Assembly: GCA_902761355.1 (NCBI GenBank)
Contig: CACWJY010000016.1
Span: forward strand, 62,001-126,000
Source: Fibrobacter succinogenes
GTDB taxonomy: Bacteria; Fibrobacterota; Fibrobacteria; Fibrobacterales; Fibrobacteraceae
Length of the DNA: 64,000 bases
Direction of reading: 5' to 3'
This document shows, in pieces, positions 16,059 through 40,682 of the stretch (the first letter of the stretch is position 1; each line of letters begins with the position of its first letter). Below the pieces are notes generated by a model. The model was not told the origin of the DNA and ran no database searches. It worked only from the letters and a program-made list of their open reading frames with translations. A program made the position numbers and the translations under genes.

Positions 16059-17090
16059 CTACCGATTCTTTTCGAATTCCATAATATCCGCCTGCAAGGT
16101 CACATCATCAGGAAAATACTTTTGTGCAATCCGGAGCAGACGCAAAGCCTCGTCATCACGTTTTTGGGCATGAGCATCGTAGGCCATGTTCTTGAAGCCG
16201 AAAACAGATTCGGCATTACCCTGCTTAGCGGCAAGCTCATAGGCAGATTCGGCGCGATCAAAAAACTTGGCATCATAGGCAAGGTTCCCTAAGAAGATTG
16301 CCGCATCACTAAAATCAGGCTTGATTTGTGTCAAATTATTAAGCACATCCATCGCCACGAACGGTTTATCATCTTCGGCAAGAACATCGGCCAGCTTGTA
16401 CATGGTTGCAGGATCGTCAGGACGAACACCAAGCGCTTCGCGATAGGCCCCCGCGCTTTCCTCGTACTGTTTGTTTAAGCGATAAACATCACCTAGATAG
16501 ACGAGGAAATCGAGTTCTTCGGGATGCAAGGCGTAACCCTCGCGAATCACGGCGACGGCACGTTCAAAATCGTTAAGGGCGATATTCGCTTCTGAGAGCT
16601 GATAGACGATACTGATGTCTTCTTTATCAAGCTGATAGGCCTTTTCGATGGCACGCAGCGCGCCGACCCCATCGCCGGTTTTACTGTAGGCTTCGCCTAA
16701 GTAAAGCCAACCAGAAACGTTTTCCGGTTCCAGTTTCAACGCACGGTGGTACGCCGCCACACATTCGGGATACTGTCTGAGTCTAAAGTAAACGCTGGCC
16801 AAGTTAAAGAGCGCCGGCGAAAAGGCTCCGTTCGAAAAGTCTATCGCCTTGCGGTAGGTGGCGGCGGCATTCGGCAAATCGTTCTGCTGGTAATAACTAT
16901 TGGCAATGTTGAAACTGGTCGCGATGGGGTCGGCACCGCGAGATTCCGCCTTACGGTAAAGCGTAATTGCCTGTTTGAATTTTCCATCGCGGTAGAGCGC
17001 ATTCGCGCGTTCCATCAGGTCGTAGGCAGACTGTGCCGCAAAGGAGATCGCAGCAAAGACAAGCACAATGAAGAATGAGCGGCAAATCAT
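16059..17090 (-). CDS. Secreted TPR protein, last gene of the TonB operon
   Basis: This is a 343-residue protein with a signal peptide (ICRSFFIVLVFAAISFAAQSA) and then roughly eight tetratricopeptide repeats, e.g. units with ALYRDGKFKQAITLYRKAE and SGWLYLGEAYSK. It lies three bases after the TonB stop. TPR proteins are a regular last member of DUF3450/TolQ/ExbB/ExbD/TonB clusters, where they probably scaffold or connect the machine in the periplasm. The substrate receptor cannot be inferred from it. Confidence 0.88.
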   Translation of the reverse strand: MICRSFFIVLVFAAISFAAQSAYDLMERANALYRDGKFKQAITLYRKAESRGADPIATSFNIANSYYQQNDLPNAAATYRKAIDFSNGAFSPALFNLASVYFRLRQYPECVAAYHRALKLEPENVSGWLYLGEAYSKTGDGVGALRAIEKAYQLDKEDISIVYQLSEANIALNDFERAVAVIREGYALHPEELDFLVYLGDVYRLNKQYEESAGAYREALGVRPDDPATMYKLADVLAEDDKPFVAMDVLNNLTQIKPDFSDAAIFLGNLAYDAKFFDRAESAYELAAKQGNAESVFGFKNMAYDAHAQKRDDEALRLLRIAQKYFPDDVTLQADIMEFEKNR

Positions 17091-17093
17091 GAC

Positions 17094-17747
17094 TTAATCC
17101 CTAAACTTCACTTCAAACGGCTGTTCCATACCACAGAAAGGCACCGCCTTTCCCGCCTTTTCTGCCGGAGTAAAAGTCATACGCGACAAAGCATCTTTAC
17201 CAGCCTGGGCAAGGCCAGAGCCCGCAGGAGACTCTTCCAAGACCTTGATATCGTAAACATGGCCACCCGCATCAACACAAAAGCTCAAGCGAAGCATGGC
17301 ATCGATTTCACGGTCACGGATTTGAGGGGGCACCTGAAAATTCGCCATCGAGCGGCTTTCAGGTTTCTTGTCGACATCGCCCTTTTCGGTAGAGAGAGCT
17401 CCGCCACGAAAATCGGCTACAAGTTCCTCACTAATAGCGGCACCCGTCGAGCCCGAAGCCGCACCCAAATTCATCGCAAAACGTGGTCCAGCCTTCGGAG
17501 AACGTGAATTAGACTTTTGACGGTTCGGCTTGCGGGACGGCTTTTTCTTTTCGACTTTTTTTTCAACTTCGTCGACTTTCTTGATGGCAATCTCGGCCTT
17601 ATTGTATTTCTTTTCGTGAAACACCTTTCCACTCAAGAAAAGGTTAGCCATCGTCACGGAGAATACGAGTAGCATGCTTGCCAGGATCGCTGCAAGCAAA
17701 ATGCTAAAACGCTTAAAAAGCTTTTTAAACCACTTCCAAATCATCAA
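17094..17747 (-). CDS. tonB: TonB family energy transducer
   Basis: This 217-residue protein has a short basic cytoplasmic N-terminus, one membrane helix (about residues 15-38), a Lys/Pro/Arg-rich periplasmic linker (VEKKVEKKKPSRKPNR) and a C-terminal TonB domain (about 150-217) with RLSFCVDAGGHVYDIKVLEESP and FTPAEKAGK. TonB takes the proton-motive-force energy of ExbB/ExbD to outer-membrane receptors. It is downstream of exbD in the operon, separated by 67 bases that contain a copy of a 31-base repeat. The receptor encoded at 34448-36943 is a possible partner, supported by the shared promoter motif. Confidence 0.92.
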   Translation of the reverse strand: MMIWKWFKKLFKRFSILLAAILASMLLVFSVTMANLFLSGKVFHEKKYNKAEIAIKKVDEVEKKVEKKKPSRKPNRQKSNSRSPKAGPRFAMNLGAASGSTGAAISEELVADFRGGALSTEKGDVDKKPESRSMANFQVPPQIRDREIDAMLRLSFCVDAGGHVYDIKVLEESPAGSGLAQAGKDALSRMTFTPAEKAGKAVPFCGMEQPFEVKFRD

Positions 17748-17761
17748 ATCAACCTTGCATG

Positions 17762-17792
17762 GATTGCTTCGCTACGCTCGCAATGACGTATT
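17762..17792 (+). repeat. 31-base dispersed repeat, copy 1 (tonB-exbD gap)
   Basis: Identical over 31 bases to 18236-18266, in the same orientation. The core ATTGC...GCAAT can form a hairpin over TTCGCTACGCTC. It fills most of the gap between exbD and tonB. Sequences of this form are known as common intergenic repeats in many bacteria. Confidence 0.85.
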
Positions 17793-17814
17793 CTCGATTC
17801 CTAGTATTTACCGA

Positions 17815-18219
17815 TCACTCTGCCTGAGCCGCGATAGAAACCTTTTTTACTCCGGCCAAGTTACACATATCAATCACCTGCACAAGCACACCCGTTTCGG
17901 CGCCCTTATCCGCAATCACAACCGCCTCTCGGTCAGGAGTCTTTGCTAGGGACTGTTTCAAGATATCCTGCAAGCTTGCCAAGTCCACCTGGCGTTCGTT
18001 CATGTGAATCGTTCCTTCACGCGTTATCGCAATCAGCAAGTTTTCTTTTTCAAGCTGGCTTGCCGTCTGGGCCTGCGGTTTGGTCACATCCACGCCCGTC
18101 TCGCGCGTAAACGAAGACGTCACCACAAAAAAGATGAGCAAGATGAACACGATATCCATCAGCGGGCCCATTTCGATGCCCATATCCTTCTGTTTTCTTC
18201 TCGGCAAATTAAATTCCAT
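17815..18219 (-). CDS. exbD: ExbD/TolR family protein
   Basis: This 134-residue protein has the ExbD layout: a short cytoplasmic N-terminus, a single helix with the essential Asp (GPLMDIVFILLIFFVV, about residues 18-37) and a periplasmic domain. With ExbB it forms the proton channel that drives TonB. It lies between exbB and tonB and is bracketed by two identical copies of a 31-base repeat, which suggests insertion of repeat units in an existing operon without loss of gene order. Confidence 0.93.
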   Translation of the reverse strand: MEFNLPRRKQKDMGIEMGPLMDIVFILLIFFVVTSSFTRETGVDVTKPQAQTASQLEKENLLIAITREGTIHMNERQVDLASLQDILKQSLAKTPDREAVVIADKGAETGVLVQVIDMCNLAGVKKVSIAAQAE

Positions 18220-18235
18220 ATAAACCTTCTCTTTA

Positions 18236-18266
18236 GATTGCTTCGCTACGCTCGCAATGACGTATT
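18236..18266 (+). repeat. 31-base dispersed repeat, copy 2 (exbD-exbB gap)
   Basis: Same 31 bases as 17762-17792, same orientation. This copy reaches into the exbB stop codon (TAA read from 18265-18267), supplying two of its three bases. It is nearly the whole exbB-exbD gap. Confidence 0.85.
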
Positions 18267-18948
18267 AGCCTTCAGCCTTTTCTACAAAATAATTCTCTAT
18301 TACAGTTGCACCAAGTTCCATCTTCTGGCGCAAAATTTCAACACGTTCATCCAGGCGCTGTTTCAAGAGAGTCAACGGGAAAGCAACCAAAAGTCCGCTC
18401 TGTGTCGAGATCAAGGCTTCCGAAATTCCGTCGGCCATCAGCACCGGGTTCTGGTTTCCGTAAAGCGTAATCACTTCGAATGTCGAAACCATGCCCGTCA
18501 CCGTTCCCAATAGGCCCAGCAGTGGCGCCGCAGAAGCCATCACCGACACAATGTGATTTCCTTGTTCCATATAGCGCACCGTTTTCATCATGCGCACTTG
18601 CATATAGTCACGGAATCCTTCGGGATTGTCCTTCGCCACATCAATCGCATAGCACAGTTCGCGCCCCAAAAGCCCGCCACGCTTGCGGAGTCTGCGCAAG
18701 GCTTTCTCGACGCTCGGGGGTTCAGCATTCTTTTCGTATTCTTCGTTACCGCCATTCAAGTCAAGACGCATGCGCTTGATGACCCTGTGAATGTCAGCGC
18801 GGAAGAAATCGCTCCCGATGCGGAACCAGCTCGAAAACAGGTAGTAGAATCCGATAACGCCCGCCAAGAGAATCGGGAGCATCACCACACCGCCGGCCTG
18901 GTAAGTATTCTGCAAGGATTCTAGGAATATGTAATGCGTATTGCTCAA
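18265..18948 (-). CDS. exbB: ExbB/TolQ proton channel
   Basis: This 227-residue MotA/TolQ/ExbB protein has an N-terminal helix (VVMLPILLAGVIGFYYLF), a cytoplasmic loop, and two more helices with the family signature SAAPLLGLLGTVTGMVSTFEVI (quoted here in parts: SAAPLLGLLGTV, TGMVSTF) and ISEALISTQSGLLVAFP. It is the smaller of the two channel proteins in this operon. The start is TTG at 18948, overlapping the GIY-YIG gene stop (TTGA); no ATG would keep the first helix. The overlap suggests the GIY-YIG gene landed very close to the original exbB translation start. Confidence 0.93.
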   Translation of the reverse strand: MSNTHYIFLESLQNTYQAGGVVMLPILLAGVIGFYYLFSSWFRIGSDFFRADIHRVIKRMRLDLNGGNEEYEKNAEPPSVEKALRRLRKRGGLLGRELCYAIDVAKDNPEGFRDYMQVRMMKTVRYMEQGNHIVSVMASAAPLLGLLGTVTGMVSTFEVITLYGNQNPVLMADGISEALISTQSGLLVAFPLTLLKQRLDERVEILRQKMELGATVIENYFVEKAEG

Positions 18949-19256
18949 TTTTTATCTTCCGCTACCAAACGTTTTGACGCCGTACTTTTGGAAAGGTCAG
19001 TGAGCTTGCCGAACTGCCCTTGAATTAAAGCTTTTTTCTTAGCTCGAGACCACCCCTGAACTTGTTTTTCACGTGCAAAAGCATCATCAATTCGCTGAAA
19101 CTCCTCATAATAAACAAGTTCTACAGGCAAATGTTTCCGCGTATAATTCGCTCCCACGCCCATATTATGTTCCTGCACTCTCTTTTCTAATCCCTGCGTA
19201 CTGCCGGTATAAAATGAACCATCAGAACACTTTAATATGTACATATAGCTACTCAT
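18945..19256 (-). CDS. GIY-YIG single-domain endonuclease, inserted in the TonB operon
   Basis: This 103-residue protein has the GIY-YIG nuclease core: MYILKCSDGSFYTGST, LEKRVQEHN with the catalytic-type Arg, and a YYEEF strand. It resembles the YhbQ/UPF0213 group of small nucleases. Its last 22 or so residues fall outside the domain and are coded partly by a diverged copy (18995-19018) of the inverted repeat that also lies upstream of its start (19278-19301). It breaks the order DUF3450, TolQ-like, ExbB, ExbD, TonB and overlaps the exbB start. I infer a small mobile or repeat-associated gene, not a part of energy transduction. Confidence 0.9.
   Translation of the reverse strand: MSSYMYILKCSDGSFYTGSTQGLEKRVQEHNMGVGANYTRKHLPVELVYYEEFQRIDDAFAREKQVQGWSRAKKKALIQGQFGKLTDLSKSTASKRLVAEDKN
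18995..19018 (+). repeat. Diverged 24-base repeat inside the 3' end of the GIY-YIG gene
   Basis: Matches the 24-base unit at 36513-36536 at 19 of 24 positions (core TGAGCTTGCCGAA against TGAGCCTGCCGAA). It is inverted with respect to 19278-19301, so the two bracket the nuclease gene. Confidence 0.65.
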
Positions 19257-19277
19257 TCTATCCTCTTTTATTTTTTC

Positions 19278-19301
19278 GGCCCTTCGGCAGGCTCAGGGAC
19301 C
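19278..19301 (-). repeat. 24-base repeat upstream of the GIY-YIG gene
   Basis: Reverse complement is identical over 24 bases to 36513-36536 (inside the TonB-dependent receptor gene). It lies in the 64-base gap between the GIY-YIG gene and the TolQ-like gene. The type (TGAGCCTGCCGAAGGGCC) belongs to a class of REP-like intergenic repeats widespread in bacteria. Confidence 0.85.
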
Positions 19302-19320
19302 TTATTTACCAAAGCATCTC

Positions 19321-20853
19321 TTATTTTACGTTAGTTACCTTCCCGAAAATCCGATTCAACAGCGAGGTGCTCTGCACATACATTTCGCTAGTCACCTTTT
19401 CAATCTTTTCACTTAAAAGACCGTGCAAGATCATCACCGGGATAGCAATCACAAGGCCCGTTTCCGTCGTCACCAGGGCTTCAGAAATACCGCCTGCCAA
19501 AACGCGGGCGTCGTTTGTTCCCACTTCGGTAATCACAGTGAAAAGCGTAATGATACCTGTCACCGTACCGAGCAAGCCAAGCAGCGGAGCAATCGTTCCC
19601 ATGGCAGCCAACAGACCCATGCGGCGTTCCAATTTCGGCTGTTCGCGAAGCATCGCTTCTTGCAGCGAGCGTTCTGCATCTTCGCGTTTGTCGCGGGCAC
19701 GATTCAGCACAGCAAACAGCACCAGCGAAAGACTCGTTTCCTTTTTCAGGCAAAGGTTCGCAGCATCTTCGTAACGGGACTCCTTCACAAGCGCATTCAA
19801 CTTTTTCAGAAAGCGACGGCCCAAATGTCCGCGGAAAGTCAACACCAAGAAGCGTTCCAGGCAAAGGAGCAAGGCGAAGATTGCCACCAAGGCCAAGGGG
19901 TACATTACAATGCCACCCTTCTTAAAGAAAGCCTTCAATTCTTCGTCCCAGGTCAGTTCCTTAGTGTCGGTGATAGAATTCTTGACAGCCTTATTCTGCA
20001 AAACATCCAGCGGAATCGTCACAGCATTCGAAGCAGCTTCCGCCTGAGTCACCGCCTGTTTGATGCCGCTCACCATATCAGGCGGAAGCGTCGCATTCCA
20101 TTCAAACACCTTTCCCTGCAAAGCCCCAGAACGGAGCAGCGCCTGCACGTCACCGTTATCCAGAGCCACTTCTCCAAGGAAAACTGTTCCCAGGCGCAAG
20201 CGATTCACGTTTACATCGGGGCGAGAGCCCACCTGCGATACTTCACGACCAAAAGATTGCGTGTAGGTCAGTTCATGGCGCAACAGCAGGTCGTCCATAA
20301 AGCCCTGCACCGCTCCGATTGTATTCGGAACCTTCTTGTCCGCCTCACTTGCAGCCTGACGTAGACGGAGCAAGCGAGCATTCATGCCGACCGGATAGTC
20401 GCCCATCACATCGCCAAGAGACTTATCAATCGAAAGCTTCACCTGCGTATTCAGCGCATCGTACGCCGATTCTTCGGACTGCGCCTTTTCTTCGGCATCG
20501 CTGGTCATGTTTTTGCTCGCCATGACTTCTTCGCTTACGCGGCCCAAGTCCGTCGAAAGCTTGGAATAGCGGCCATCCAGTTCACGAGAAGCAGCCTGAT
20601 GTTCTTCGGTCAACTGAGATTCGGCATAGCGCTTGCGCCAATGTTCCGCTTCGAGCTTTTCGAGGGAATCCGCCTTCTGCAACCGGATGCGGGTAAGAGC
20701 CTCGACCTCACGTTGCAAATTGCGCACTTCTTCCATTTGCAACGAGTCCTTAATACGCGCCTGGTCTTCGGCAGAGGCTTTCTTTTCGCTCGATGACCAC
20801 GGCCATGCAAAAGCAGAAGTTGCAAGAAACAGCAAAATTACAGATTTTTTCAT
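19321..20853 (-). CDS. Large MotA/TolQ/ExbB protein with periplasmic coiled-coil N-terminus
   Basis: This 510-residue protein has a signal peptide (VILLFLATSAFAWPW), about 280 residues of mostly coiled-coil periplasmic sequence, a membrane helix (MYPLALVAIFALLLCLERFLV, around 320-340) and a C-terminal MotA/TolQ/ExbB domain with TIAPLLGLLGTVTG and ISEALVTTETGLVIAIP. This two-part layout is that of TtpC-like proteins, which in Vibrio TonB2 systems link the energy machine to the envelope. Its ATG overlaps the DUF3450 stop by four bases (ATGA). Confidence 0.92.
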   Translation of the reverse strand: MKKSVILLFLATSAFAWPWSSSEKKASAEDQARIKDSLQMEEVRNLQREVEALTRIRLQKADSLEKLEAEHWRKRYAESQLTEEHQAASRELDGRYSKLSTDLGRVSEEVMASKNMTSDAEEKAQSEESAYDALNTQVKLSIDKSLGDVMGDYPVGMNARLLRLRQAASEADKKVPNTIGAVQGFMDDLLLRHELTYTQSFGREVSQVGSRPDVNVNRLRLGTVFLGEVALDNGDVQALLRSGALQGKVFEWNATLPPDMVSGIKQAVTQAEAASNAVTIPLDVLQNKAVKNSITDTKELTWDEELKAFFKKGGIVMYPLALVAIFALLLCLERFLVLTFRGHLGRRFLKKLNALVKESRYEDAANLCLKKETSLSLVLFAVLNRARDKREDAERSLQEAMLREQPKLERRMGLLAAMGTIAPLLGLLGTVTGIITLFTVITEVGTNDARVLAGGISEALVTTETGLVIAIPVMILHGLLSEKIEKVTSEMYVQSTSLLNRIFGKVTNVK

Positions 20854-21686
20854 CTTTCTCCCCCCACGACAGAAAGGCTAACCGGCAACTGCACAATCTG
20901 AGGCGGCTTTTTAGCCTGCTTCACTTCGATAGCAAGCTTTACAGCAGCACGTTCCTCCAAGTTCAATTCCTCGTTCCATTCGTAAGTAACCTTGCCGTTT
21001 TGATTCTTGCGCACCAGGCACCCAAAAACAGTTGCATTTTCGTCGCTATAAACCATCCACTGGTTCCCAACGCGAAGAATCGAGGCATTAATAAGTTCAC
21101 CATTCTTGCGAGTAAGCGGGCTATTGATAATAGCCACTTCGTCACCAAAGCGAGTCTCTTCGGCTATCAAAGATTTTAAACGCGAAAAACCTTCTTCTTC
21201 GCTCGCGTTTCCACTTTCGATATCTCGGGTTAAGGACTTGACGCGATCTAGTCGCGTATCACGTTCCCAGGGGAGCGTTTGTGCCACCTGAGTTTCGAGT
21301 TTTTTGCTGATGCCCGCAAGTTCCGCACGCAACGCCTTGCGCTTGGCCGTCACATTGTCGCTCCGGTTCTTCGCCTTGGCCTGTTTATTACGTTCGTCCT
21401 GAAGTTCACCCGCAATCGTCTTGATTTTTGCATTTAGGCTATCAATTTCAGCACGGCGGCGTTCCGTATCTGCCTTATACCGCTGCGAAAGCGTCTTGTA
21501 GCGGGAATCATCCGCCTTGAGCATCGAATCGGTCGAGGCAATCTGGCGGTTTAACTTCTGAATTTCGGAATTCAGCTTTTCTTTTTCAAGTTTAAGATCA
21601 CGAATTTCGGCATCCCGATCAGCAAAAGCCAGATTCGAGACAACCAAAATCAGCAATGCCACCGGCAACAACTTTAATCTATTCAT
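20850..21686 (-). CDS. DUF3450 periplasmic coiled-coil protein, first gene of the TonB operon
   Basis: This 278-residue protein has a signal peptide (LLPVALLILVVSNLAFA) and a long coiled coil with heptads (LKLEKEKLNSEIQKLNRQI) followed by a globular end, the DUF3450 layout. The family is regularly found as the first gene of TolQ-like/ExbB/ExbD/TonB/TPR clusters; its exact role is unknown, probably a periplasmic partner of the TolQ-like coiled coil. I place the start at 21686 (GGAA five bases upstream). An upstream in-frame ATG at 21746 lies inside the proposed ECF-type promoter at 21726-21755, which argues against it. Confidence 0.88.
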   Translation of the reverse strand: MNRLKLLPVALLILVVSNLAFADRDAEIRDLKLEKEKLNSEIQKLNRQIASTDSMLKADDSRYKTLSQRYKADTERRRAEIDSLNAKIKTIAGELQDERNKQAKAKNRSDNVTAKRKALRAELAGISKKLETQVAQTLPWERDTRLDRVKSLTRDIESGNASEEEGFSRLKSLIAEETRFGDEVAIINSPLTRKNGELINASILRVGNQWMVYSDENATVFGCLVRKNQNGKVTYEWNEELNLEERAAVKLAIEVKQAKKPPQIVQLPVSLSVVGGER

Positions 21687-21725
21687 ATTATTCCGTTTAA
21701 GGTTCGGTCTCAAAATTACATTATT

Positions 21726-21755
21726 AGAACACCCGAACCGGCACAAAGTGTCACC
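21726..21755 (-). promoter_or_regulatory. Candidate ECF-type promoter of the DUF3450-TonB operon
   Basis: On the minus strand: GGTGACA (21749-21755), 16 bases, GTGTTCT (21726-21732). The predicted transcription start would be near 21719, leaving about 33 bases of leader before the ATG at 21686. Same motif and spacing as at 40653-40682 and 36997-37026. Confidence 0.6.
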
Positions 21756-25062: not shown

Positions 25063-25078
25063 ATATGCACTCCTTTTG

Positions 25079-26209
25079 TTATTCAGTAATTTCGTTCAAT
25101 CCAAACGTGGTATTGCCAAATTCAAACGTTAAAGTTTTCCCGCTGATGTACAGATTTGATTCCTTGCCATCAGCATTTTTTCCTTTTCCAAATGACAAGA
25201 CGATCTTGCTGTTGTCGCCGTTTTCTTCTAGTGTATAATTCGCCGTAATTGATCCGGCATAGATTGTATCATCGTCATCCACTTCTTCAAAATCCGTTTC
25301 GCCTACGATGTTATATTGTTCAAAGGCCATCGTCTTTGCCTTGGAATCAATCGAGACTAGGTTGTAGACATATCCCGTTGTATCACCGTTATCTACAAAA
25401 GCCTTTATTCCACCCGAAGTCATGTCTAGGTACGACATAAAGAACGTTTCGTCAAGCATGTCGACATTGACAAAAGTTAAGCTTTCATCAATAGACTTGT
25501 GAGTTTCGTAGGTGAAGTGGTACGGCAAGAATATGCTGTGTACCATGCTCCAGTTATCGTTAGAAAGTTTTGAGAACTGGGTGTAAAAGGTCGAAGCACG
25601 ATTCGCAACTTCTGCAGTATAGGTTCGCGTAATGACGGTCGTCGTTTTTTCGCCATTCGCCACAGCAACGCCCTTAACGGTCGCCTTGGCGCCCGTAACA
25701 GTCTCGCCATCCTCGTCATCATATGTAAACTCAAATTCTATAGATGACGTAGACGATTCCTTTTCGGAAGTCTTTTCAGAAGAAGTCTTTACGGTTTCTG
25801 TTTCAAAGTCGTCTTCAACCCATTCACCGTCTACGTAGCCAATGCTATGAATACGCCATGAATCGGAATTCCACATCCTGATGAATTCTTCTTCACTATA
25901 TAACCGGCCGTCATCACCAAGGGGTGCCTTTTTTACCTGCAGGATGAGAGAATCCCTGGTTGCACGGTAACTGCAAAGGACCTCGTCTTCGACCACTTCG
26001 TCAATAAAATCAATCTTTGCAAGGGCCGTTTTTGCACCCACAAAATCAATCGAAATATCTTCCCCTACAAATGAACGGCCCTCAAAGCTCACGATATCGG
26101 TCGCATCTTTAAGAGACTCATCCAGGGTCGTTGCAACATCAACCGTATCGCTAGAGCAGGCGGCAAGGAAAGCTACCGCAGCAATAATACCAAAACCTTT
26201 TAATTTCAT
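25079..26209 (-). CDS. Lipoprotein of unknown function (376 aa)
   Basis: The N-terminus IIAAVAFLAACSSD is a lipobox, so the protein is lipid-anchored through Cys 18. The rest (about 358 residues) is acidic and beta-rich, with Thr/Ser/Glu-rich stretch TSSEKTSEKESSTSS in the middle. I recognise no domain. It starts one base after the stop of the 655-residue lipoprotein gene and precedes the barrel protein by 16 bases; the three probably form one envelope unit. Confidence 0.8.
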   Translation of the reverse strand: MKLKGFGIIAAVAFLAACSSDTVDVATTLDESLKDATDIVSFEGRSFVGEDISIDFVGAKTALAKIDFIDEVVEDEVLCSYRATRDSLILQVKKAPLGDDGRLYSEEEFIRMWNSDSWRIHSIGYVDGEWVEDDFETETVKTSSEKTSEKESSTSSIEFEFTYDDEDGETVTGAKATVKGVAVANGEKTTTVITRTYTAEVANRASTFYTQFSKLSNDNWSMVHSIFLPYHFTYETHKSIDESLTFVNVDMLDETFFMSYLDMTSGGIKAFVDNGDTTGYVYNLVSIDSKAKTMAFEQYNIVGETDFEEVDDDDTIYAGSITANYTLEENGDNSKIVLSFGKGKNADGKESNLYISGKTLTFEFGNTTFGLNEITE

Positions 26210-26210
26210 T

Positions 26211-28178: not shown

Positions 28179-28197
28179 TCAAACACCTTCTAAAATT

Positions 28198-28227
28198 AAA
28201 ACACCAAAACGGCCCAAAACCGTCACC
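28198..28227 (-). promoter_or_regulatory. Weaker ECF-type promoter candidate of the lipoprotein operon
   Basis: On the minus strand: GGTGACG (28221-28227), 16 bases, GTGTTTT (28198-28204). Spacing matches the three stronger sites, but two positions differ from their consensus and the leader would be short (about 13 bases). Confidence 0.4.
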
Positions 28228-32868: not shown

Positions 32869-34464
32869 CTAGATATTGCACGCAGAATATTTATATTCGC
32901 GGCAAATGCTTTCGACCCGTTCTTTCAAGATATTCGACTTGGGAGCTTCAATCTTGTAGCGTTCCACCAAAGCGATACGGCACTGTTCATAGTCCATATT
33001 CCAGTTGCGGTCGGCACACCAGGTCCACAGATAATCCTTGCAATAGTTGTAATCAGCGCCTTCGAGGCAAAGTTCCTTGAGTTCTCCGCAATCGGCAATC
33101 TTGTTGCTTTCAAAATTATTGGCAACGCAATAGCGCTTAAGGCCATCGGCATAGGCCGCATTCTTTTCGGCATCGCTAATAGATTCCGGCAGGAACAGGG
33201 ACCACTTAGTCGTATCGAGCATCATCGCCGCCTTGACGCTAGACGCATAGCACGCAGGCTCATTTCTGTTGACAACAGTATCCCTATAATATTCATAAGC
33301 ACGTTTATTCGCCTCCAGCAAACCCATTTCGTCAAACTCGTCAGTCGGTATTCCGGAGCAAACCACATCCTGATAGAGGCGGCATCCCTTAGAATCCCAG
33401 CTATCGGCGTGATCACCATCTTTTTCGCTACAATTTCGAATGGCGATATGCTCCATCGAAACCCCGTTGCCTTGCACGGTTATATAAATCGATGACTTTG
33501 CCATTCCACTAAAGACACCCATACCGTTTTCGATATTCGATTCTGGTACGATTCGAGAATCCGTCAGCGAGGCCTTTACCTTGTTATCATAATCGATATA
33601 GGCATCATCCGTCGCATAAAAATCAACCGAAATATCGCCAATGGGCATCATCATGTTCATCAAGTAAAGCGTATCGAGTGCATAAAAATCGGCAACCTTG
33701 CGGTTTGATGTAAAGCCCAGATTTTGCTGCGTTTCAAGCGGGTCGTGCATTGCGATTCCCCTATAGCCCGTAGAATCACTTTTAGTCATGCCCTTGAACA
33801 TCTGGTTAAAGGTCGTGTTTTGGGATTCCGCAGTGTTCAAACCATAATTCATGATAGAAATCACTCCGCGAACGGACTTATCATAATCCATGGCGCATTT
33901 TACAAACTCCATATCTAAGGGGAATTCCAAGAACTGTACCGTAAAGGAATCATTGCTGCTATTCGGCTGCCATTTGTAGCTGCCATCTGGCTGAGGCAAA
34001 TTTAAACCCTTGACCTTCACGGAATTCGGAATGGTCGCAACGGCCTTGTATCTGGACTTTGCCTTATGTCCAATACTGTCCCATTCAAAATAGGCTTCAA
34101 GAACATAGGATTCGCCCTTGATTCCATGAAAGCCGTCACTTGTAAAACAGTTCGGCTTATCGCTACGGGCTCCTAGTCTAACAGTCGTATCGATTTCTGT
34201 TTCAGCGCCATCGGAGTATTTTCCCTGCACCGTTACATAGGCGCTATCATAGAACGCAAAATCCTTGGTCGAGATTTCGTCGAGTTCATAGACTTTCGAA
34301 AAGCAGACGTCGGGATTTCCTTCGCTAAGGATATAGCCATAGGTATAGATTCCCGTATAAACCTCACGTTCCTCAGGATAGTATTCCCACGGTCCATGGA
34401 AATCGCAAGAAGCAAGAAGCAGGGCAAAGACCAATGCGCCAAAAATCTTAGAAATAGTATTCAT
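32869..34464 (-). CDS. Receptor-linked lipoprotein (DUF4249-like)
   Basis: This 531-residue lipoprotein (lipobox ALLLASCDFHG) has a beta-rich body and a Cys-rich helical tail (NYCKDYLWTWCADRNW, ending ICREYKYSACNI). Its position, overlapping the 3' end of a TonB-dependent receptor gene by 17 bases, and the early strand pattern resemble DUF4249 lipoproteins of Bacteroidota, which pair with such receptors. I am not certain of the family. Likely role: outer-membrane ligand capture for the receptor. The Cys-rich C-terminus is not typical of DUF4249 and may be a separate module. Confidence 0.75.
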   Translation of the reverse strand: MNTISKIFGALVFALLLASCDFHGPWEYYPEEREVYTGIYTYGYILSEGNPDVCFSKVYELDEISTKDFAFYDSAYVTVQGKYSDGAETEIDTTVRLGARSDKPNCFTSDGFHGIKGESYVLEAYFEWDSIGHKAKSRYKAVATIPNSVKVKGLNLPQPDGSYKWQPNSSNDSFTVQFLEFPLDMEFVKCAMDYDKSVRGVISIMNYGLNTAESQNTTFNQMFKGMTKSDSTGYRGIAMHDPLETQQNLGFTSNRKVADFYALDTLYLMNMMMPIGDISVDFYATDDAYIDYDNKVKASLTDSRIVPESNIENGMGVFSGMAKSSIYITVQGNGVSMEHIAIRNCSEKDGDHADSWDSKGCRLYQDVVCSGIPTDEFDEMGLLEANKRAYEYYRDTVVNRNEPACYASSVKAAMMLDTTKWSLFLPESISDAEKNAAYADGLKRYCVANNFESNKIADCGELKELCLEGADYNYCKDYLWTWCADRNWNMDYEQCRIALVERYKIEAPKSNILKERVESICREYKYSACNI

Positions 34465-36943
34465 AGCTCAGCATAATCGGTAAAAAGGGGAACTGCGTAA
34501 TTTCAGTCTTCTGCGGAGGATTCTTGCTTGTATCGTAGAAGGTATAGAACATGTTTTCGTGGTCGGTCAGGTTGATAATCGTCCAGCTGAAATTCCATTT
34601 GTTTTCGCGGCCCATATCGATCGCCTTTACATCAATCCTAAAGTAATCCGTCTGTCGACCGGCATTACGGCTACCCGGCAGAACAATCGCCTCATCGGTA
34701 TAATTCTGGTGTCCCAGTTCTTCGGAGAAATAATACCCCTTGTATTCACTGATGGGCATACCGGCAGAATACTTCATGATAATCGAAGAACGGAAATACA
34801 AATCCTTCTGAATCTTTTGCACCGACAAGGCGTCCTCTTTACCGCGCCAGTTGATGCCCAAATCCATCTTGAGCGCATACGGCTGATGCCAACTCGGGAA
34901 ATACGGCTTGGTGCCATCGTTCGTTTTCATCACGCTAATGCTCTGACTCCAGTTGATACCGCCAAACCACCAGCCCTTATCTTTACGCAACGAAAGTTCA
35001 TAGCCAAAAGAGTAGCCTTCCGCCGTTCCAAAGCCATCGGCAACCACAAAGTCGTCCGAAGTCGTTTCGTCGTTGCTATCCAGAACCGCCTGGAAAGTAT
35101 TCAGGTTGTTTTGCGTCTTATAATAGACACCCACAGTCGCATCGTAGCCTTCAAAAAGATCGCGATGACTGTATTCCGTGGCAAGCAACCATGACGACGC
35201 AGGCTTGATACGCCGTCCCTTTGTAGTGGTCGTTGCAGGATAATAGAATTCGTTCAAGGTTTCCTGGTCGGTATAGACAATTGAATTCAAATACTGCAAA
35301 TAGTAGCCGCCATAAAATTCAAGGGTCTTGGTTTCGTCAAGATTTATGCTCAGTGATGCACGCGGCTCTACACCAAAGTGTTCCGCAGAAGTCTGATAGT
35401 TAAAGCGCAGCCCATATTGCAACAGGTAATCGGGAGCAAATTTCCAGGCATCTTGTAGGTAGCCTACATGATGAAAAGGTTTTTGAATATCGGCTACGCT
35501 TACAGTAGACATCTGTTCTTGATAACGTTCATAATCGTATTCCAGTTCGTAGCCTAGCGTAAAGGTATGGTCCGGAATTCCGCGATAGTTGACCCACTGC
35601 TTGCCAGCGAAGGTATAAAGGAACATTTCGATCGACATGAGTTCGCCGATTTTCATGGTCTGATAGAATTCGCTAAAGGCAAGCGTGGCGTTGTAATCCC
35701 AATCGCCGTTAATACGATGACTGATGTTCACTGGGATAGCGACATTTCCCCAGTCCATGTAGAGCGGGTCAAAGCTTAGGCGGTCCTTACCCACGTAAAA
35801 GCTAAACTTCATGCGCGTATCGTTGGTAAAATTGTACATGAAGGTTCCCTGCAAATCCGTAAATTCATAGTCCAGGTCAAGATCTATGATATCGAGGGCA
35901 TTCATCAAATCAAGCATATAACCGATATACGTCGTGCGGCCTGCCACCACCCAACGGGCCGGCCCCTGATGGCCTTCGGTATGGAGCTGGGCGGCAAAGG
36001 TGCTTATCTTGATGCTAGACTTACTGAACCATTCGTTAACCGTATCCTGACCGCCCGCGCGGCCATCCATCTTGAGAACGGAACTCAGGCGGTTACCGTA
36101 CTGCGCCGGGAATCCACTCTTGTAGAACTGCACATCGTCAATGCCTTCGACAAGGAATGTACTGAAAAGACCAAAAAAATGCACCGGAGAATAAACAACC
36201 GCGTTGTCGAACAAAAATAGGTTCTGGTCGGCAGCACCACCGCGCACATAAATCTTGGAACTAAAGTCAGAACTAGCCACCACGCCCGGGAGCGCCTGAA
36301 TGCTTTTGATAACATCCGCTTCGGCAAGGCTCGGCATGCGCTTAATCGACTTGGCAGAAACAACAGATTCACCGGGTTTGCGCTTGGGGCGACGACGGAG
36401 CTGCACCACGACTTTCTTAAGTTCGGTCACCTTTGCGTTATCGCCACCGGCAAGAAGGTCGTCGACGTTGACATCTTTTGGCTGCGCGGTATCGGCAGCG
36501 GCATTGGAATCAGGTCCCTGAGCCTGCCGAAGGGCCGGCACCGAATCTATGGTTGGTTCGGCGAGCTCACCAACCTTAACAGGATCCTCTGCAAATGCTT
36601 CGCCGAGGGTTTGCGAAAAGCTGCGTTCGGCGCCAATGTACTTGAGCTCATAGCATTTTTCTTTTTCGGCGCCCGCGGTATCGGAATTCGTAACACAAAT
36701 GTTCCAGAGAGTATCTTCGGGGAGCACGACACTGAATGGCGTACCGACCGTTGTTTGCAGCGCTTCGCCCGACTCCAGGATTTCGACATTGAGTTTTTCA
36801 CCTGGGGCAAATGAGGAATCCTGCACAACCCCGTTAAAAGTGATTCCCTGGGGTGCAAGCGAATCGGGCACAGGTTCTTGTGCCATAGCGGCTACATTCA
36901 GCATAGCCAGCAACAAAACGAAGATTTCAATATAACGTTTCAA
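34448..36943 (-). CDS. TonB-dependent outer-membrane receptor
   Basis: This 831-residue receptor has a signal peptide (IFVLLLAMLNVAAMAQ), an N-terminal extension of about 150 residues, a plug domain (VVSAKSIKRMPSLAEADVI, then IYVRGGAADQNLFLFD) and a 22-strand-type barrel ending in aromatic residues (MLSYEYYF). It imports a large or scarce ligand with TonB energy. I set the start at TTG 36943, with GAGAAGAGAG just before it and a signal peptide directly after; an in-frame ATG at 36988 lies at the predicted transcription start of the ECF-type promoter at 36997-37026. A 24-base repeat is embedded in frame at 36513-36536. Confidence 0.9.
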   Translation of the reverse strand: MKRYIEIFVLLLAMLNVAAMAQEPVPDSLAPQGITFNGVVQDSSFAPGEKLNVEILESGEALQTTVGTPFSVVLPEDTLWNICVTNSDTAGAEKEKCYELKYIGAERSFSQTLGEAFAEDPVKVGELAEPTIDSVPALRQAQGPDSNAAADTAQPKDVNVDDLLAGGDNAKVTELKKVVVQLRRRPKRKPGESVVSAKSIKRMPSLAEADVIKSIQALPGVVASSDFSSKIYVRGGAADQNLFLFDNAVVYSPVHFFGLFSTFLVEGIDDVQFYKSGFPAQYGNRLSSVLKMDGRAGGQDTVNEWFSKSSIKISTFAAQLHTEGHQGPARWVVAGRTTYIGYMLDLMNALDIIDLDLDYEFTDLQGTFMYNFTNDTRMKFSFYVGKDRLSFDPLYMDWGNVAIPVNISHRINGDWDYNATLAFSEFYQTMKIGELMSIEMFLYTFAGKQWVNYRGIPDHTFTLGYELEYDYERYQEQMSTVSVADIQKPFHHVGYLQDAWKFAPDYLLQYGLRFNYQTSAEHFGVEPRASLSINLDETKTLEFYGGYYLQYLNSIVYTDQETLNEFYYPATTTTKGRRIKPASSWLLATEYSHRDLFEGYDATVGVYYKTQNNLNTFQAVLDSNDETTSDDFVVADGFGTAEGYSFGYELSLRKDKGWWFGGINWSQSISVMKTNDGTKPYFPSWHQPYALKMDLGINWRGKEDALSVQKIQKDLYFRSSIIMKYSAGMPISEYKGYYFSEELGHQNYTDEAIVLPGSRNAGRQTDYFRIDVKAIDMGRENKWNFSWTIINLTDHENMFYTFYDTSKNPPQKTEITQFPFLPIMLSYEYYF
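36513..36536 (+). repeat. 24-base dispersed repeat inside the receptor coding sequence
   Basis: Identical over 24 bases to the reverse complement of 19278-19301. Here it is translated, coding PALRQAQGP in the linker before the plug domain of the TonB-dependent receptor, without breaking the frame. Confidence 0.85.
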
Positions 36944-36996
36944 AAAAACTCTCTTCTCGTAACAAAAATAGCAAATAGGTTTCCCCATTTGCTATT

Positions 36997-37026
36997 GTAA
37001 CACCTTAAGGAGTAAAAAGTGTCACC
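36997..37026 (-). promoter_or_regulatory. Candidate ECF-type promoter of the TonB-dependent receptor operon
   Basis: On the minus strand: GGTGACA (37020-37026), 16 bases, GTGTTAC (36997-37003). The transcription start would be near 36990, 47 bases before the TTG start at 36943. It lies between the caspase-like gene stop and the receptor gene, so the receptor has its own promoter although it follows the sigma operon on the same strand. Confidence 0.65.
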
Positions 37027-37031
37027 TATTT

Positions 37032-39362
37032 TTAGAACCGACCCACGGTAATGCCCGAGTAGAATCCGGGCCACCAGCGGCCTTTATGCTTTTCGCTGCC
37101 GAAGTCGTCGTGGTAGTTATTCCAAGGTTTTAGCCATAGTTTATCCGCATAACCCAAAGTTGCAAAGTTTAACGATCCACCTACGGCAAGGCCAACACCA
37201 GGGAAAAGCTTATGTACAAATCCCAAACGTATGCGATGGTGATAATTCCAATTTCGGTCATCAGTGAACGAGACATCTTCGTAGGCATTCAGGAGCATGT
37301 ATTCCAGTTCAAAATGATTACCGTATTTGCCAAACTGCGTACCGATTCCGTAGCCGCTCTCGTAACGGTCTTCAAAATGCTTGAAGCCATTCCCCTTTTC
37401 AAAGGGGCGAGCCCATTCAAAAGCAGTGTAGAAATAGGCCGTACCCAGGTGGAGCGAAAGATCTAGAGAACCCATTTCGTTAAGGGTCGTCGTTGCCGAC
37501 CACACGCCGTTCCCCACCACGCTAATAAAGCCCACCGGAGTCTTTTCACATTCCCAGCACACATTAACAAAACCCACCTGGCGGCCCTTGGCCTTGGTGG
37601 CGACATTCACGTAACCGACCTGGGTTCCGCCTTCCAGCGCAGAGACATTCACAAAGCCAACTTCTACATCAGACTTGGCGGCCACATTCACAAAGCCAAC
37701 TTGCACATCGCTTTCTTTTGCAACATCCACAAAACCGACCTGCACACCGGAGCCAAGGGCCACGTTCACAAAGCCTATATTGGTTTTGCTGTATTCGCCC
37801 ATGTTCACTAAGCCAAGCTGTAGGTACCGCATGGTATCAAGGGCTCCGTTCACATATCCGATCTGCACACCTTCGGACTTTTCGTCGGCCCAGTTGACAA
37901 AACCAAGCTGCAGGCCGTCAACACTTTCGGCATAGTTGAGCGTACCCGAAATCTGAGCGCCTTCAATGTGTTCGTTAGAAATATTCAAAAGGGCTGCCAC
38001 TTGAATACCGCGCATTTCTTTGCGGGCATTATTCACAAACAAACTCACCTGCGAGCCTATTAAATAGTCGCTAGCCTTGGTGGCAAAAAGGCCCAGCTGT
38101 ACGCCCTTGCGAGGTTCTTTTTCACGATCGTAAAAACCAAAGGTGGTATGAGAAACACCATTGCGGTCCAAGGAATCCATAGAACACTTCGCAGCATCAC
38201 CATTAGCACAAGAACGTTCGCTCTTGATTTCGCCACGGAGAGCGGTCTTTTCAGCCTCCACCGCCGTAAATTGCTTTCGCGTCAATCGGGCACGGTAGTT
38301 GTCCTGAAGGGTAACCGTCGCCTCCTTGTATTCGGCGGGGCGTTCTAGACGCACACTATACTTTCCAGCCGGGAATCCGAGACTCATCGCGCGGCCCGGC
38401 TTTTTGTAGAGTTCGGCAACGAGTTCCCCCTTTTCGTCACGGATAAACAAGTGGCCATCCACGTCTTCGTCCAATTCAAGACCTGCACTGGTACTGCGCA
38501 AATCGGTCATCACCACGTCACCGGTACCCGCCAAATTCATATCGCGGCTGGGGTGCTGGGCGCCACCCATCGTCGTTTCAGTTTTTTGGAGCGTTTCGCT
38601 AAACGCAAACTGGTAAGCTTCAGAAAGGGTCACCTTGCCATCGCCACTTACATCACCAGCACCGCGGAGGCCACTCACTAAAGAATGCGTAAAGAAGGAG
38701 CCCTTCAGCTTATCGCTTTCCTGGCTCGATTCATCTTGAGTACTACTCGTAATAAAGGCATAACCCTTCATGTCGCTGCTCTTGTCGACCATAAAGGCAG
38801 GTACTGCGACACCACCTTTCACACGCGTAATGGCTCCCGAACCGCATGCATCGATTACCGCAATTTTTACATCGGCGTTGAGGGCGTCGATTCTTTTGCG
38901 GAATTCCTTCCAGGTGTAGACTTCTTCGCCAAGGCGCAGTCCCTTTTCATCCGCATGGCCGCTATAATACACCAGGACCTCTTCACGAGAAGACGTTTCT
39001 GCATTCTTGGCAGACTTTGCCGTCGAAAGTTTTTTATCAAGAGCATCCAGCTGCGCCTGCAGACCCGCCACACTCGGCTCCGTCACACGATAAACGTTCT
39101 GCCTGGGCACACCGCCCATTTGCGAAAGCACATCCGCAAAGGCCCGGGCGTCACTTTCGGCATAACGCAGACGCGGGCGTTCCTTACCGCCGTTGTTGGC
39201 ACTCACGGCAAACACGTAGCGGTTAATCGCAATTTCATCTGCATTCGCAGCGGCTTGTACATTGCCCGCCACCACCAATACAAGCAACAGGCATAGCGAG
39301 CAAATAGATGCGGAACCAGACAAAAAATCACAGAACAGAACTCTTCCTAAAAACTTTTTCAT
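37032..39362 (-). CDS. Secreted caspase-like protein with EF-hand, surface repeats and C-terminal barrel-like domain
   Basis: This 776-residue protein has a signal sequence (about 18-38), then a caspase fold (peptidase C14, about 45-285) with catalytic dyad His136 (VYYSGHAD) and Cys173 (VIDACGSG). A canonical 12-residue EF-hand loop, DVSGDGKVTLSE, lies at 237-248. A linker follows, then about fourteen units of 12-16 residues with the pattern V-Q-V-G-F-V-N-V-A (residues 420-617, like LA_2272-type surface repeats), and a beta-rich end that finishes in Phe (TVGRF), like an outer-membrane barrel. The start ATG 39362 gives the signal peptide; the reading from 39407 adds 15 residues. It is third in an operon after an ECF sigma factor and anti-sigma factor. 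Substrate unknown. Confidence 0.88.
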   Translation of the reverse strand: MKKFLGRVLFCDFLSGSASICSLCLLLVLVVAGNVQAAANADEIAINRYVFAVSANNGGKERPRLRYAESDARAFADVLSQMGGVPRQNVYRVTEPSVAGLQAQLDALDKKLSTAKSAKNAETSSREEVLVYYSGHADEKGLRLGEEVYTWKEFRKRIDALNADVKIAVIDACGSGAITRVKGGVAVPAFMVDKSSDMKGYAFITSSTQDESSQESDKLKGSFFTHSLVSGLRGAGDVSGDGKVTLSEAYQFAFSETLQKTETTMGGAQHPSRDMNLAGTGDVVMTDLRSTSAGLELDEDVDGHLFIRDEKGELVAELYKKPGRAMSLGFPAGKYSVRLERPAEYKEATVTLQDNYRARLTRKQFTAVEAEKTALRGEIKSERSCANGDAAKCSMDSLDRNGVSHTTFGFYDREKEPRKGVQLGLFATKASDYLIGSQVSLFVNNARKEMRGIQVAALLNISNEHIEGAQISGTLNYAESVDGLQLGFVNWADEKSEGVQIGYVNGALDTMRYLQLGLVNMGEYSKTNIGFVNVALGSGVQVGFVDVAKESDVQVGFVNVAAKSDVEVGFVNVSALEGGTQVGYVNVATKAKGRQVGFVNVCWECEKTPVGFISVVGNGVWSATTTLNEMGSLDLSLHLGTAYFYTAFEWARPFEKGNGFKHFEDRYESGYGIGTQFGKYGNHFELEYMLLNAYEDVSFTDDRNWNYHHRIRLGFVHKLFPGVGLAVGGSLNFATLGYADKLWLKPWNNYHDDFGSEKHKGRWWPGFYSGITVGRF

Positions 39363-39372
39363 TTTATCCCCC

Positions 39373-40146
39373 TTACTTTTCCACCTTGCGAAGCGTAAAC
39401 GAAACATTTTCGACGCCCGGCTGCCTTAAGCTCTTATCAATATCATTCCCATCGATTTCAAAAGCCTTTTCCGAAGTGAGCAAAAAGAACTTCTCGAATT
39501 TCGGTGCATTATCAAGCTTATAGGCAAACGGGAGTGTCGTCATCTTGCCAGGTTCAAGTTCAATTGCTTTGTCACCCTCGCCCATATGCATCGTTATCGT
39601 CCCGTTTCCATCCATACTGAAGAGCATGCCGAAACATTTTTGCGGCACACGATAACGTAGCTGAATTTCGTCGCCTTCGAAAGCGTCACCCAAGTTTACC
39701 ATCTGCACAGCACTGTCACCCGTCTTTTTCCAGACTTCAAGCGAAGCAGACATGCCCTTGATACGGGTACCGTTATCGGTATCTGCCAAGGCAACTTCCA
39801 TTGACGTACCGGAGCCTTCGTATGTAGTCACATTACGGTTCAGCACCACCGCAGAGAAAACTCCCAGCGCAATCACTAAAGCAGCAGCTACCTTCAGCCA
39901 CAACGTATTGAAGGATCGGTTCGGCAGAATCTCTGACCGTTCCGCATTTTTAAACTTATCTTCTATGGCGCTAAACGGATTTTCCGCCAAAAAACGCTCC
40001 CCCTGTTCACGCATTTCACGCACACGGGCCGCAAATATTTCATCACAAGCTTCACGTTCACGCAAAGCCTGCATTTCACCCTCAGGGAGGTCTCCCAAAA
40101 GGTAGCGTTCTAGCTTAAAATCTGAAATTTTATTGACAGAAGTCAT
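39373..40146 (-). CDS. Membrane anti-sigma factor
   Basis: This 257-residue protein has an N-terminal cytoplasmic helical domain of anti-sigma type (KLERYLLGDLPEGEMQALRE, like zinc-less ASD domains), one membrane helix (about 86-106, LWLKVAAALVIALGVF) and a beta-rich periplasmic domain of about 150 residues. Its start overlaps the sigma factor stop by four bases (ATGA) and the caspase-like gene follows after ten bases. It probably holds the sigma factor at the membrane until a periplasmic or outer-membrane signal releases it. No conserved CHCC zinc motif is visible. Confidence 0.85.
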   Translation of the reverse strand: MTSVNKISDFKLERYLLGDLPEGEMQALREREACDEIFAARVREMREQGERFLAENPFSAIEDKFKNAERSEILPNRSFNTLWLKVAAALVIALGVFSAVVLNRNVTTYEGSGTSMEVALADTDNGTRIKGMSASLEVWKKTGDSAVQMVNLGDAFEGDEIQLRYRVPQKCFGMLFSMDGNGTITMHMGEGDKAIELEPGKMTTLPFAYKLDNAPKFEKFFLLTSEKAFEIDGNDIDKSLRQPGVENVSFTLRKVEK

Positions 40147-40646
40147 CTTTCAACCTCCAGATTCTTGATTCTGGCTTGCAGGGTGCGTAAACGCTTACGC
40201 ACGCCGCTTACCGAAAGTCCAACTGTTTCAGCAGTTTCTTCCAGAGTCATGCCGTCTACATAATGCAGCGTTGCAATCGTCCGAGTCGATTCCTGCTCCT
40301 TGGAAAAAATCCTTGCCAAAATTCCACCGGCTTCGCGGCCATCATCCTCTTCAGCGCAGGCAATCGTGAGCAAAAGTTCACTCGAGTCGACATCAAGCCC
40401 ACGGCGTTTCTTGTCGCGGATGCGGTTCAGGCAGAGTCTGGTCGCCGTATTCCACAACAAACTCGACGGCTGAGACAAATCCAGGGATTCCACGCGTTCG
40501 TACACACGCAAAAAAACATTCTGTACCATGTCTTTCGCTTCGGAATCGTCCTTGAGCAAAAAAATACAACGTCTAAAAACCATCGGGGCGTATGCCTCGT
40601 ACAGTTTAGAAAACGCCATGCGGTCAAGGAGATTTTTTCCGTTCAT
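40143..40646 (-). CDS. ECF RNA polymerase sigma factor
   Basis: This 167-residue protein has sigma-2 (FSKLYEAYAPMVFRR and DMVQNVFLRVYER) and sigma-4 (LHYVDGMTLEETAETVG with HTH ending SGVRKRLRTLQARI), with no sigma-1 or sigma-3, the ECF layout. It is first in the sigma/anti-sigma/caspase operon. A promoter-like dyad begins seven bases upstream of the ATG at 40646, so either the mRNA is leaderless or translation starts at the in-frame ATG at 40619 (MAFSKLYEAY), which is also a normal ECF start. Self-activation is likely, as in most ECF systems. Confidence 0.92.
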   Translation of the reverse strand: MNGKNLLDRMAFSKLYEAYAPMVFRRCIFLLKDDSEAKDMVQNVFLRVYERVESLDLSQPSSLLWNTATRLCLNRIRDKKRRGLDVDSSELLLTIACAEEDDGREAGGILARIFSKEQESTRTIATLHYVDGMTLEETAETVGLSVSGVRKRLRTLQARIKNLEVER

Positions 40647-40652
40647 ACCAGT

Positions 40653-40682
40653 GTAACACTTATGGAGGTCGAAAGTGTTACC
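40653..40682 (-). promoter_or_regulatory. Candidate ECF-type autoregulatory promoter with dyad symmetry
   Basis: On the minus strand: GGTAACA (40676-40682), 16 bases, GTGTTAC (40653-40659). The same bases form a perfect 9-base inverted repeat, GTAACACTT (40653-40661) and AAGTGTTAC (40673-40681), so a dimeric repressor site is the main alternative. Confidence 0.65.

Follow-up and report, generated by a model that had tools for sequence, protein, structure and literature searches.

An operon joining an ECF sigma factor, a DUF4384-like anti-sigma factor and a caspase-barrel protein in Fibrobacter succinogenes, a candidate cell-surface signalling system

We describe a three-gene operon of Fibrobacter succinogenes, found in a window of 64,000 nucleotides (positions 62,001 to 126,000 of contig CACWJY010000016.1, assembly GCA_902761355.1; coordinates below are those of the window), which encodes an extracytoplasmic function (ECF) sigma factor, a membrane anti-sigma factor and an exported protein that joins a caspase domain to LA_2272 repeats and a predicted outer-membrane barrel. 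The presence of this operon is confirmed. We give a little better than an even chance to the view that its products form a three-component cell-surface signalling system of the FecI-FecR-FecA kind, with the caspase as output domain; gene order, the domains of the proteins, an invariant catalytic dyad, the conservation of a promoter-like motif with its regulon, and the joint absence of the parts from some genomes all argue for such a system at the level of sequence. The caspase may be the component that relays an outside signal to the genome.

Architecture and conservation of the operon

The genes of the operon and the parts of their products are as follows.

40143..40646, minus strand: ECF sigma factor, 167 amino acids, regions 2 and 4 (TIGR02937, 67.6 bits, cut-off 42.9)
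39373..40146, minus strand: membrane anti-sigma factor, 257 amino acids, with helical N-terminus, transmembrane segment, flexible linker and Ig-like DUF4384-type domain, predicted periplasmic
39754..39765, minus strand: R128-I-K130-G131 of the anti-sigma factor, candidate caspase cut site, conserved amid a variable linker
37032..39362, minus strand: exported caspase, beta-sandwich, LA_2272-repeat and outer-membrane barrel protein, 776 amino acids
38493..39230, minus strand: caspase domain, residues about 45-290 (PF00656, E=4.7e-11)
Codon 38957-38955, minus strand: His136, dyad residue
Codon 38846-38844, minus strand: Cys173, dyad residue
37527..38105, minus strand: 14 LA_2272-type repeats, residues about 420-612, counted by eye
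37035..37526, minus strand: predicted C-terminal 8-strand outer-membrane barrel, residues 613-776, with C-terminal Phe (Foldseek, model)

The first product is an ECF sigma factor by profile search, regions 2 and 4 (Sigma70_r2, 5e-12, and Sigma70_r4_2) both scoring above cut-off. As a preliminary description of this DNA had stated, the three genes overlap or nearly touch on the minus strand: the sigma and anti-sigma reading frames share 4 bases, and 10 bases separate the anti-sigma stop codon from the ATG at 39362 of the caspase gene. An alternative in-frame ATG at 39407 would extend the caspase protein to 791 amino acids and overlap the anti-sigma gene. No other Peptidase_C14 gene was found in this genome, whose completeness is 90%. 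Caspase matches on plasmids were set aside: they are short, show low identity and differ in type from the caspase of the operon. A reading as anti-phage defence was likewise dropped, being without a PADLOC match.

When the three-gene order was checked in other Fibrobacterota it proved to be conserved. The homologue search covered 61 genomes, 36 of them other Fibrobacter genomes, and matched the caspase-barrel protein in 56 of the 61, including 35 of the 36; across the 60 loci surveyed, some of which are duplicates, the sigma gene is followed by the anti-sigma and caspase genes at all Fibrobacter loci whose contig is long enough and at 18 of the 20 loci from other families of the phylum. A genome-wide search for DUF4384 in 19 Fibrobacterota genomes returned eight matches, and all eight are the anti-sigma factor adjoining the caspase. 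Four genomes (G037, G038, G039 and G053) gave no match to the caspase, the anti-sigma factor or the promoter motif.

The caspase domain

The N-terminal domain belongs to Peptidase_C14 by profile, at 43.2 bits against a curated cut-off of 21.4, and the His136/Cys173 dyad named in the preliminary description is borne out, since both residues are invariant among 40 homologues; the dyad motifs also occur in most of the shorter, distant homologues. Two further residues, D71 and D171, are as invariant as the dyad in the homologue alignment. A weak alignment pairs them with the aspartates of the ND and DSC motifs in Arabidopsis metacaspase-4, and we read them as the S1 aspartates. In TbMCA2, Asp95 and Asp211 accommodate basic substrate residues and so account for Arg/Lys specificity (PMC6426788). 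The Fibrobacter caspase appears to retain both metacaspase S1 aspartates and is predicted to have the same specificity. An EF-hand loop had also been proposed; an EF-hand-like loop is present at D237-E248, and its conservation among homologues is mostly rather than wholly kept. The protein is related to the EACC1-associated caspases without being a member of that family (NF047832, 52 bits, below the curated 140).

Structure prediction of the 776-residue protein, suggested earlier as a check, produced matches to caspases and to small outer-membrane barrels, from a model with a mean predicted local distance difference test (pLDDT) score of 67 and with Foldseek E-values of only about 1e-3; caspase-7 was matched with probability 1.00 and a template modelling score on the target of about 0.5. 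Neither result named in advance as refuting the preliminary description, a gene order that is not kept or a model lacking the caspase fold or the barrel, was obtained. A sequence search for solved relatives gave none that was significant for the caspase protein, the anti-sigma factor or the TonB-dependent receptor described below. With orthocaspases and metacaspases the domain shares the His-Cys dyad and two acidic S1 residues; it differs from them in being part of an exported protein fused to an outer-membrane barrel, and its protease activity is predicted from sequence.

Repeats, barrel and topology of the third protein

From its N-terminus the protein consists of a signal peptide, the caspase domain (about 45-290), a small beta-sandwich (293-372) that looks PEGA-like by eye, a linker, the repeats (420-612) and the barrel (613-776). 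Cysteine pairs at 385/393, in the linker, and at 602/605 are conserved in most Fibrobacter homologues and could form disulfides. The repeats belong to the LA_2272 surface repeats (NF047436, 39.2 bits against a curated cut-off of 25), whose profile is matched in 31 of 40 homologues; they are 13-16 residues long, with autocorrelation peaks at 13-16 and 26-30. Of the earlier reading of about fourteen V-Q-V-G-F-V-N-V repeats, the number stands, as 14 can be read, and the consensus stands in part, only some copies coming near it. The VC2662 family is matched below its curated cut-off (NF047437, 55 bits against 140), so the protein is not a member. Our literature search found nothing that explains LA_2272 repeats.

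The proposal of a barrel-like C-terminus agrees with weak Foldseek matches to NspA, OprF, OmpX, Ail and OmpA; the strands between 620 and 775 are modelled at high pLDDT, and the terminal Phe, the C-terminal aromatic residue that goes with a barrel fold, is present in every Fibrobacter row of the alignment. In homologues from other families the repeats are sometimes absent and the final 150 residues differ, and several shorter ones still end in Phe.

An 8-strand barrel has both ends on the periplasmic side, and a domain N-terminal to such a barrel, as in OmpA and OprF, is normally periplasmic. The caspase should therefore face the periplasm, the same side as the outer domain of the anti-sigma factor, and it probably hangs there from the outer membrane rather than being displayed on the surface. 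The description of the protein as surface-anchored thus holds for the barrel, whose predicted place is the outer membrane, and probably not for the N-terminal caspase. A caspase on the cell surface, acting on outside proteins or host material, would suit the naming of the family as surface repeats and the presence of a signal peptide and a barrel, but the usual topology of barrels of this type runs counter to it and no passenger-translocator features were seen; we consider it most improbable.

The anti-sigma factor

The model of the anti-sigma factor (pLDDT 81.5) has N-terminal helices at 9-70, one transmembrane segment at about 81-101 and a disordered linker, followed by a periplasmic beta-sandwich with pLDDT above 90 that resembles Ig-like folds. 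DUF4384 (PF14326) scores 16.6 bits in this protein, below the curated 27, and is matched in 32 of 47 anti-sigma homologues (best 7.7e-10), and one homologue scores above cut-off; we accordingly call the periplasmic part DUF4384-like, lying, as far as profiles can place it, within the DUF4384 neighbourhood. Matches to zf-HC2 occur in three distant homologues only, and the match to ChrR is weak (E=0.8); the protein may be a class I anti-sigma factor, a class with a helical sigma-binding domain at the N-terminus and one transmembrane segment. Within a linker whose preceding part varies in sequence and length, the motif R-x-K-G is kept, with R in 45, K in 47 and G in 46 of the 47 homologues. Such a motif would suit a first cut by an Arg/Lys-specific protease.

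A predicted promoter and its regulon

Comparison of upstream DNA revealed a motif, GTRACACNTT-N12-GTGTTNNA, ahead of the sigma orthologues across the genus Fibrobacter and in several further families. The copies in the window, and the genes they precede, are these.

40652..40682, minus strand: promoter-like motif GGTAACACTTT-N12-GTGTTACA, perfect, upstream of the sigma gene and conserved before its orthologues
36996..37026, minus strand: perfect copy upstream of the TonB-dependent receptor gene
34448..36988, minus strand: TonB-dependent receptor (Plug domain, 4.3e-7), the next gene after the operon, predicted regulon member
32869..34464, minus strand: DUF4249-like protein (weak PF14054, 0.031), receptor partner
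21725..21755, minus strand: third perfect copy, at the DUF3450 operon, with 2 mismatches against the stricter form ...GTGTTACA
16059..21746, minus strand: DUF3450, MotA/ExbB, ExbB, ExbD, TonB and TPR operon, predicted regulon member

The 3.04-Mb genome holds exactly three perfect copies, all within the window. Among Fibrobacter genomes the motif is found in 36 of 37, with about 100 copies against one for a backward control, and the base at motif index 29, left unspecified in the search, is A in all 115 of 115 distinct sites. Because the motif sits before the sigma gene and is absent together with the system, we infer that the sigma factor itself reads it, as a predicted promoter. The copy at 40652-40682 is also a near-perfect inverted repeat, and it could be asked whether the motif is instead an inverted-repeat operator, GTAACAC-N15-GTGTTAC, of another transcription factor, the two halves of this copy being perfect inverted repeats and the motif being found there on both strands. 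Against this, the halves vary independently across sites: the left often reads GTGACAC, whereas the right keeps GTGTT and never becomes GTGTCAC, and the TTT extension belongs to the left half only, which makes the motif promoter-like and unlike an operator; its spacing is likewise that of a promoter, start codons are a short distance away, and its presence tracks the sigma system. The palindromic operator was judged very unlikely.

Membership of the receptor and of the TonB operon in the regulon, as predicted from the motif, is strongly supported. Receptor orthologues retain the motif even where they have been relocated in the genome, and 15 loci orthologous to the DUF3450 operon (PF11932, PF01618 twice, PF02472, PF03544 and TPR) bear it as well. 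A sample of 54 motif sites not ahead of sigma genes was followed, and 53 of them precede five families: the receptor, the DUF3450 operon, the DUF4249-like gene (with a motif copy of its own at loci L118, L147, L156 and L162) and two kinds of FMN (flavin mononucleotide) reductase. The latter, flavodoxin-like families of about 199 and about 398 amino acids, carry the motif in many Fibrobacter genomes (loci L114, L116, L121, L127, L129, L133 and L140; and L115, L123, L126, L145 and L159). In other families of the phylum motif copies precede receptor, ExbB and repeat-barrel genes. The ExbB-ExbD-TonB machine energises TonB receptors. Judged from the promoters, the process under control would be TonB-dependent uptake together with FMN reductases, and this combination may mean that the nutrient taken up is in short supply; it could be a metal or a metal complex.

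At locus L174 (G051:C289) a stand-alone protein of LA_2272 repeats and a barrel is encoded immediately downstream of a motif copy.

Relation to known systems

A 2012 survey lists sigma-70/metacaspase operons in Myxococcus, Anaeromyxobacter, Haliangium, Sorangium, Ralstonia and Fibrobacter (PMC3501461); the likeness is a sigma gene adjoining a bacterial caspase gene, with Fibrobacter named. Besides this survey, our search of the literature on a sigma-caspase operon found only a note on ECF54 and CHAT proteins (PMC8999054). A DUF4384 anti-sigma factor, an outer-membrane barrel, a promoter with a regulon and a link to STN systems were not found in the literature searched, which mostly excluded subscription journals. 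The bare operon was already recorded in 2012, and what is added here to the passages of that account consulted, which do not mention them for this operon, is the DUF4384-like anti-sigma factor, the barrel, the repeats, the promoter with its regulon, the STN link and a proposed mechanism. The ECF54 group, with CHAT, subtilase or carboxypeptidase neighbours, likewise places a caspase-clan protease beside an ECF sigma factor, but has no anti-sigma factor, the sigma factor itself being the proposed target (PMC8999054).

There is a functional likeness to FecI-FecR-FecA and FoxI-FoxR-FoxA (PMC11637429), which share an ECF sigma factor, an anti-sigma factor with one transmembrane segment, an outer-membrane partner that carries a periplasmic domain at its N-terminus and a TonB-dependent receptor in the regulon, the last two predicted here, the receptor's place in the regulon from the motif. 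In the Fibrobacter operon, however, a caspase takes the place of STN and a DUF4384-like domain that of FecR, and the outer-membrane partner is a small repeat-barrel rather than a TonB-dependent receptor; profile search found no STN or FecR match in its proteins. The Fibrobacter system therefore appears to resemble FecIRA in its working without being a member.

A parallel is seen in another phylum. In two species of Persicobacter (Bacteroidota), plasmid operons have the repeat-barrel gene in third place, after sigma and FecR genes.

L064:3372-7059: Persicobacter plasmid operon (repeat profile 7.9e-46)
L196:2202-5887: Persicobacter plasmid operon (repeat profile 1.1e-48)

Their third protein consists of STN-like and CarboxypepD_reg-like domains, LA_2272 repeats and a barrel, and is not a TonB-dependent receptor. 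STN is the signalling domain of FecA-type receptors. The module thus occupies the same position as in Fibrobacter, with STN and FecR where Fibrobacter has the caspase and DUF4384, and a single Hymenobacter case also has the repeat-barrel gene after sigma and FecR genes. The repeat-barrel is therefore a recurrent partner, in the outer membrane, of sigma/anti-sigma pairs, and the periplasmic heads it carries are of two unrelated kinds. Other repeat-barrel copies in Bacteroidota stand alone. On plasmids of Bacteroides finegoldii (L066) and B. ovatus (L199), LA_2272-repeat proteins have no sigma neighbour, and their genes adjoin those for GDP-fucose synthesis and for an AMP-binding protein.

A model for signalling

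Our comparisons suggest a model in which the repeat and barrel part, in the outer membrane, would sense an outside or outer-membrane condition, and the N-terminal caspase would act in the periplasm on the DUF4384-type domain of the anti-sigma factor; topology, sensing, cleavage with its site and regulatory logic are what we infer. The caspase probably cleaves, or binds, the anti-sigma factor. Site-1 cleavage would most likely take place in the linker, close to the outer face of the inner membrane, with Arg128 or Lys130 as the residue before the cut, and ordinary intramembrane proteolysis, for which the genome has one M50/RseP-type (site-2) protease, would then release the ECF sigma factor. The freed sigma factor would activate its own operon, as positive feedback, and also the genes for the TonB-dependent receptor and for the ExbB-ExbD-TonB machine that powers it; in relatives FMN reductases would be activated as well. 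Regulated proteolysis of the anti-sigma factor, which the preliminary description had raised, fits the predicted S1 aspartates, the linker R-x-K-G and the FecIRA parallel, and we regard that earlier interpretation as partly supported. We advance tentatively, and at somewhat short of even confidence, the specific proposal that the caspase is the site-1 protease of transmembrane signalling, the periplasmic caspase of an outer-membrane barrel receptor cutting R-x-K-G and so switching on TonB-dependent uptake.

Several points weigh against the signalling model. The p10 half of the caspase, residues 174-292, is not resolved in the model (pLDDT 24-43), and the fold of this second half rests on homology because the model is weak there. 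Two genomes of the phylum (G041 and G043) have short caspases but match neither the anti-sigma profile nor the motif. The R-x-K-G motif may cap the first strand of the periplasmic domain instead of being a cut site, and the Persicobacter STN scores 24.1 bits, under the Pfam cut-off of 28.4. The STN of FecA-type receptors is not a protease, and an outer-membrane partner may protect the anti-sigma factor, as in Pseudomonas (PMC11637429); the caspase might accordingly bind instead of cutting, or its effect might have the opposite sign.

In the form of this last idea that we considered, the same signalling system operates with a caspase that binds rather than cuts, the barrel protein holding or shielding the anti-sigma factor and another protease making the first cut. 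The shielding of FoxR by FoxA is a precedent (PMC11637429), and the Persicobacter counterpart carries a non-enzymatic STN at the same place; yet the dyad and the S1 aspartates are far more strictly conserved than the remaining protein, although in a pure binder one would expect occasional losses, so that we find binding alone rather unlikely. The caspase-barrel protein could also be an output, the sigma factor answering another signal and the outer-membrane caspase trimming envelope proteins, TonB receptors or foreign peptides. Through its operon the caspase gene does share a promoter with other outputs, and the stand-alone repeat-barrel protein of G051 has the motif too, but the position in the operon and the tight co-occurrence with the anti-sigma factor across the phylum speak for a part in the switch, and STN proteins hold the same position in sigma-FecR operons; this reading we hold to be unlikely.

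For the most part it is not known what bacterial caspases do, and discussion of them usually centres on cell death. Here one caspase is tied, phylum-wide, to a defined switch with a candidate substrate and cut site and a set of promoters, and its role is therefore directly testable. If the proposed signalling holds, cell-surface signalling would gain a class with a protease as its output, and the unexplained LA_2272 repeats would be connected with sensing at the outer membrane; repeat-barrel receptors would be a general sensor module to which phyla fit different periplasmic outputs, caspase or STN. Fibrobacter is one of the main rumen cellulose degraders, and the system would show how it may control TonB-dependent uptake.

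Other features of the window

Two further regions lie near the predicted regulon. A RelA/SpoT-domain gene (21782-22837) is found just upstream of the motif-bearing DUF3450-ExbB-TonB operon. Three large genes encoding proteins of 655, 376 and 341 amino acids without Pfam matches occupy 24037-28178 on the minus strand, and a motif copy with 2 mismatches lies 17 bases before the first of them.

28196..28226, minus strand: weaker motif copy, 2 mismatches, tentative, before the 655-amino-acid gene (26211-28178)

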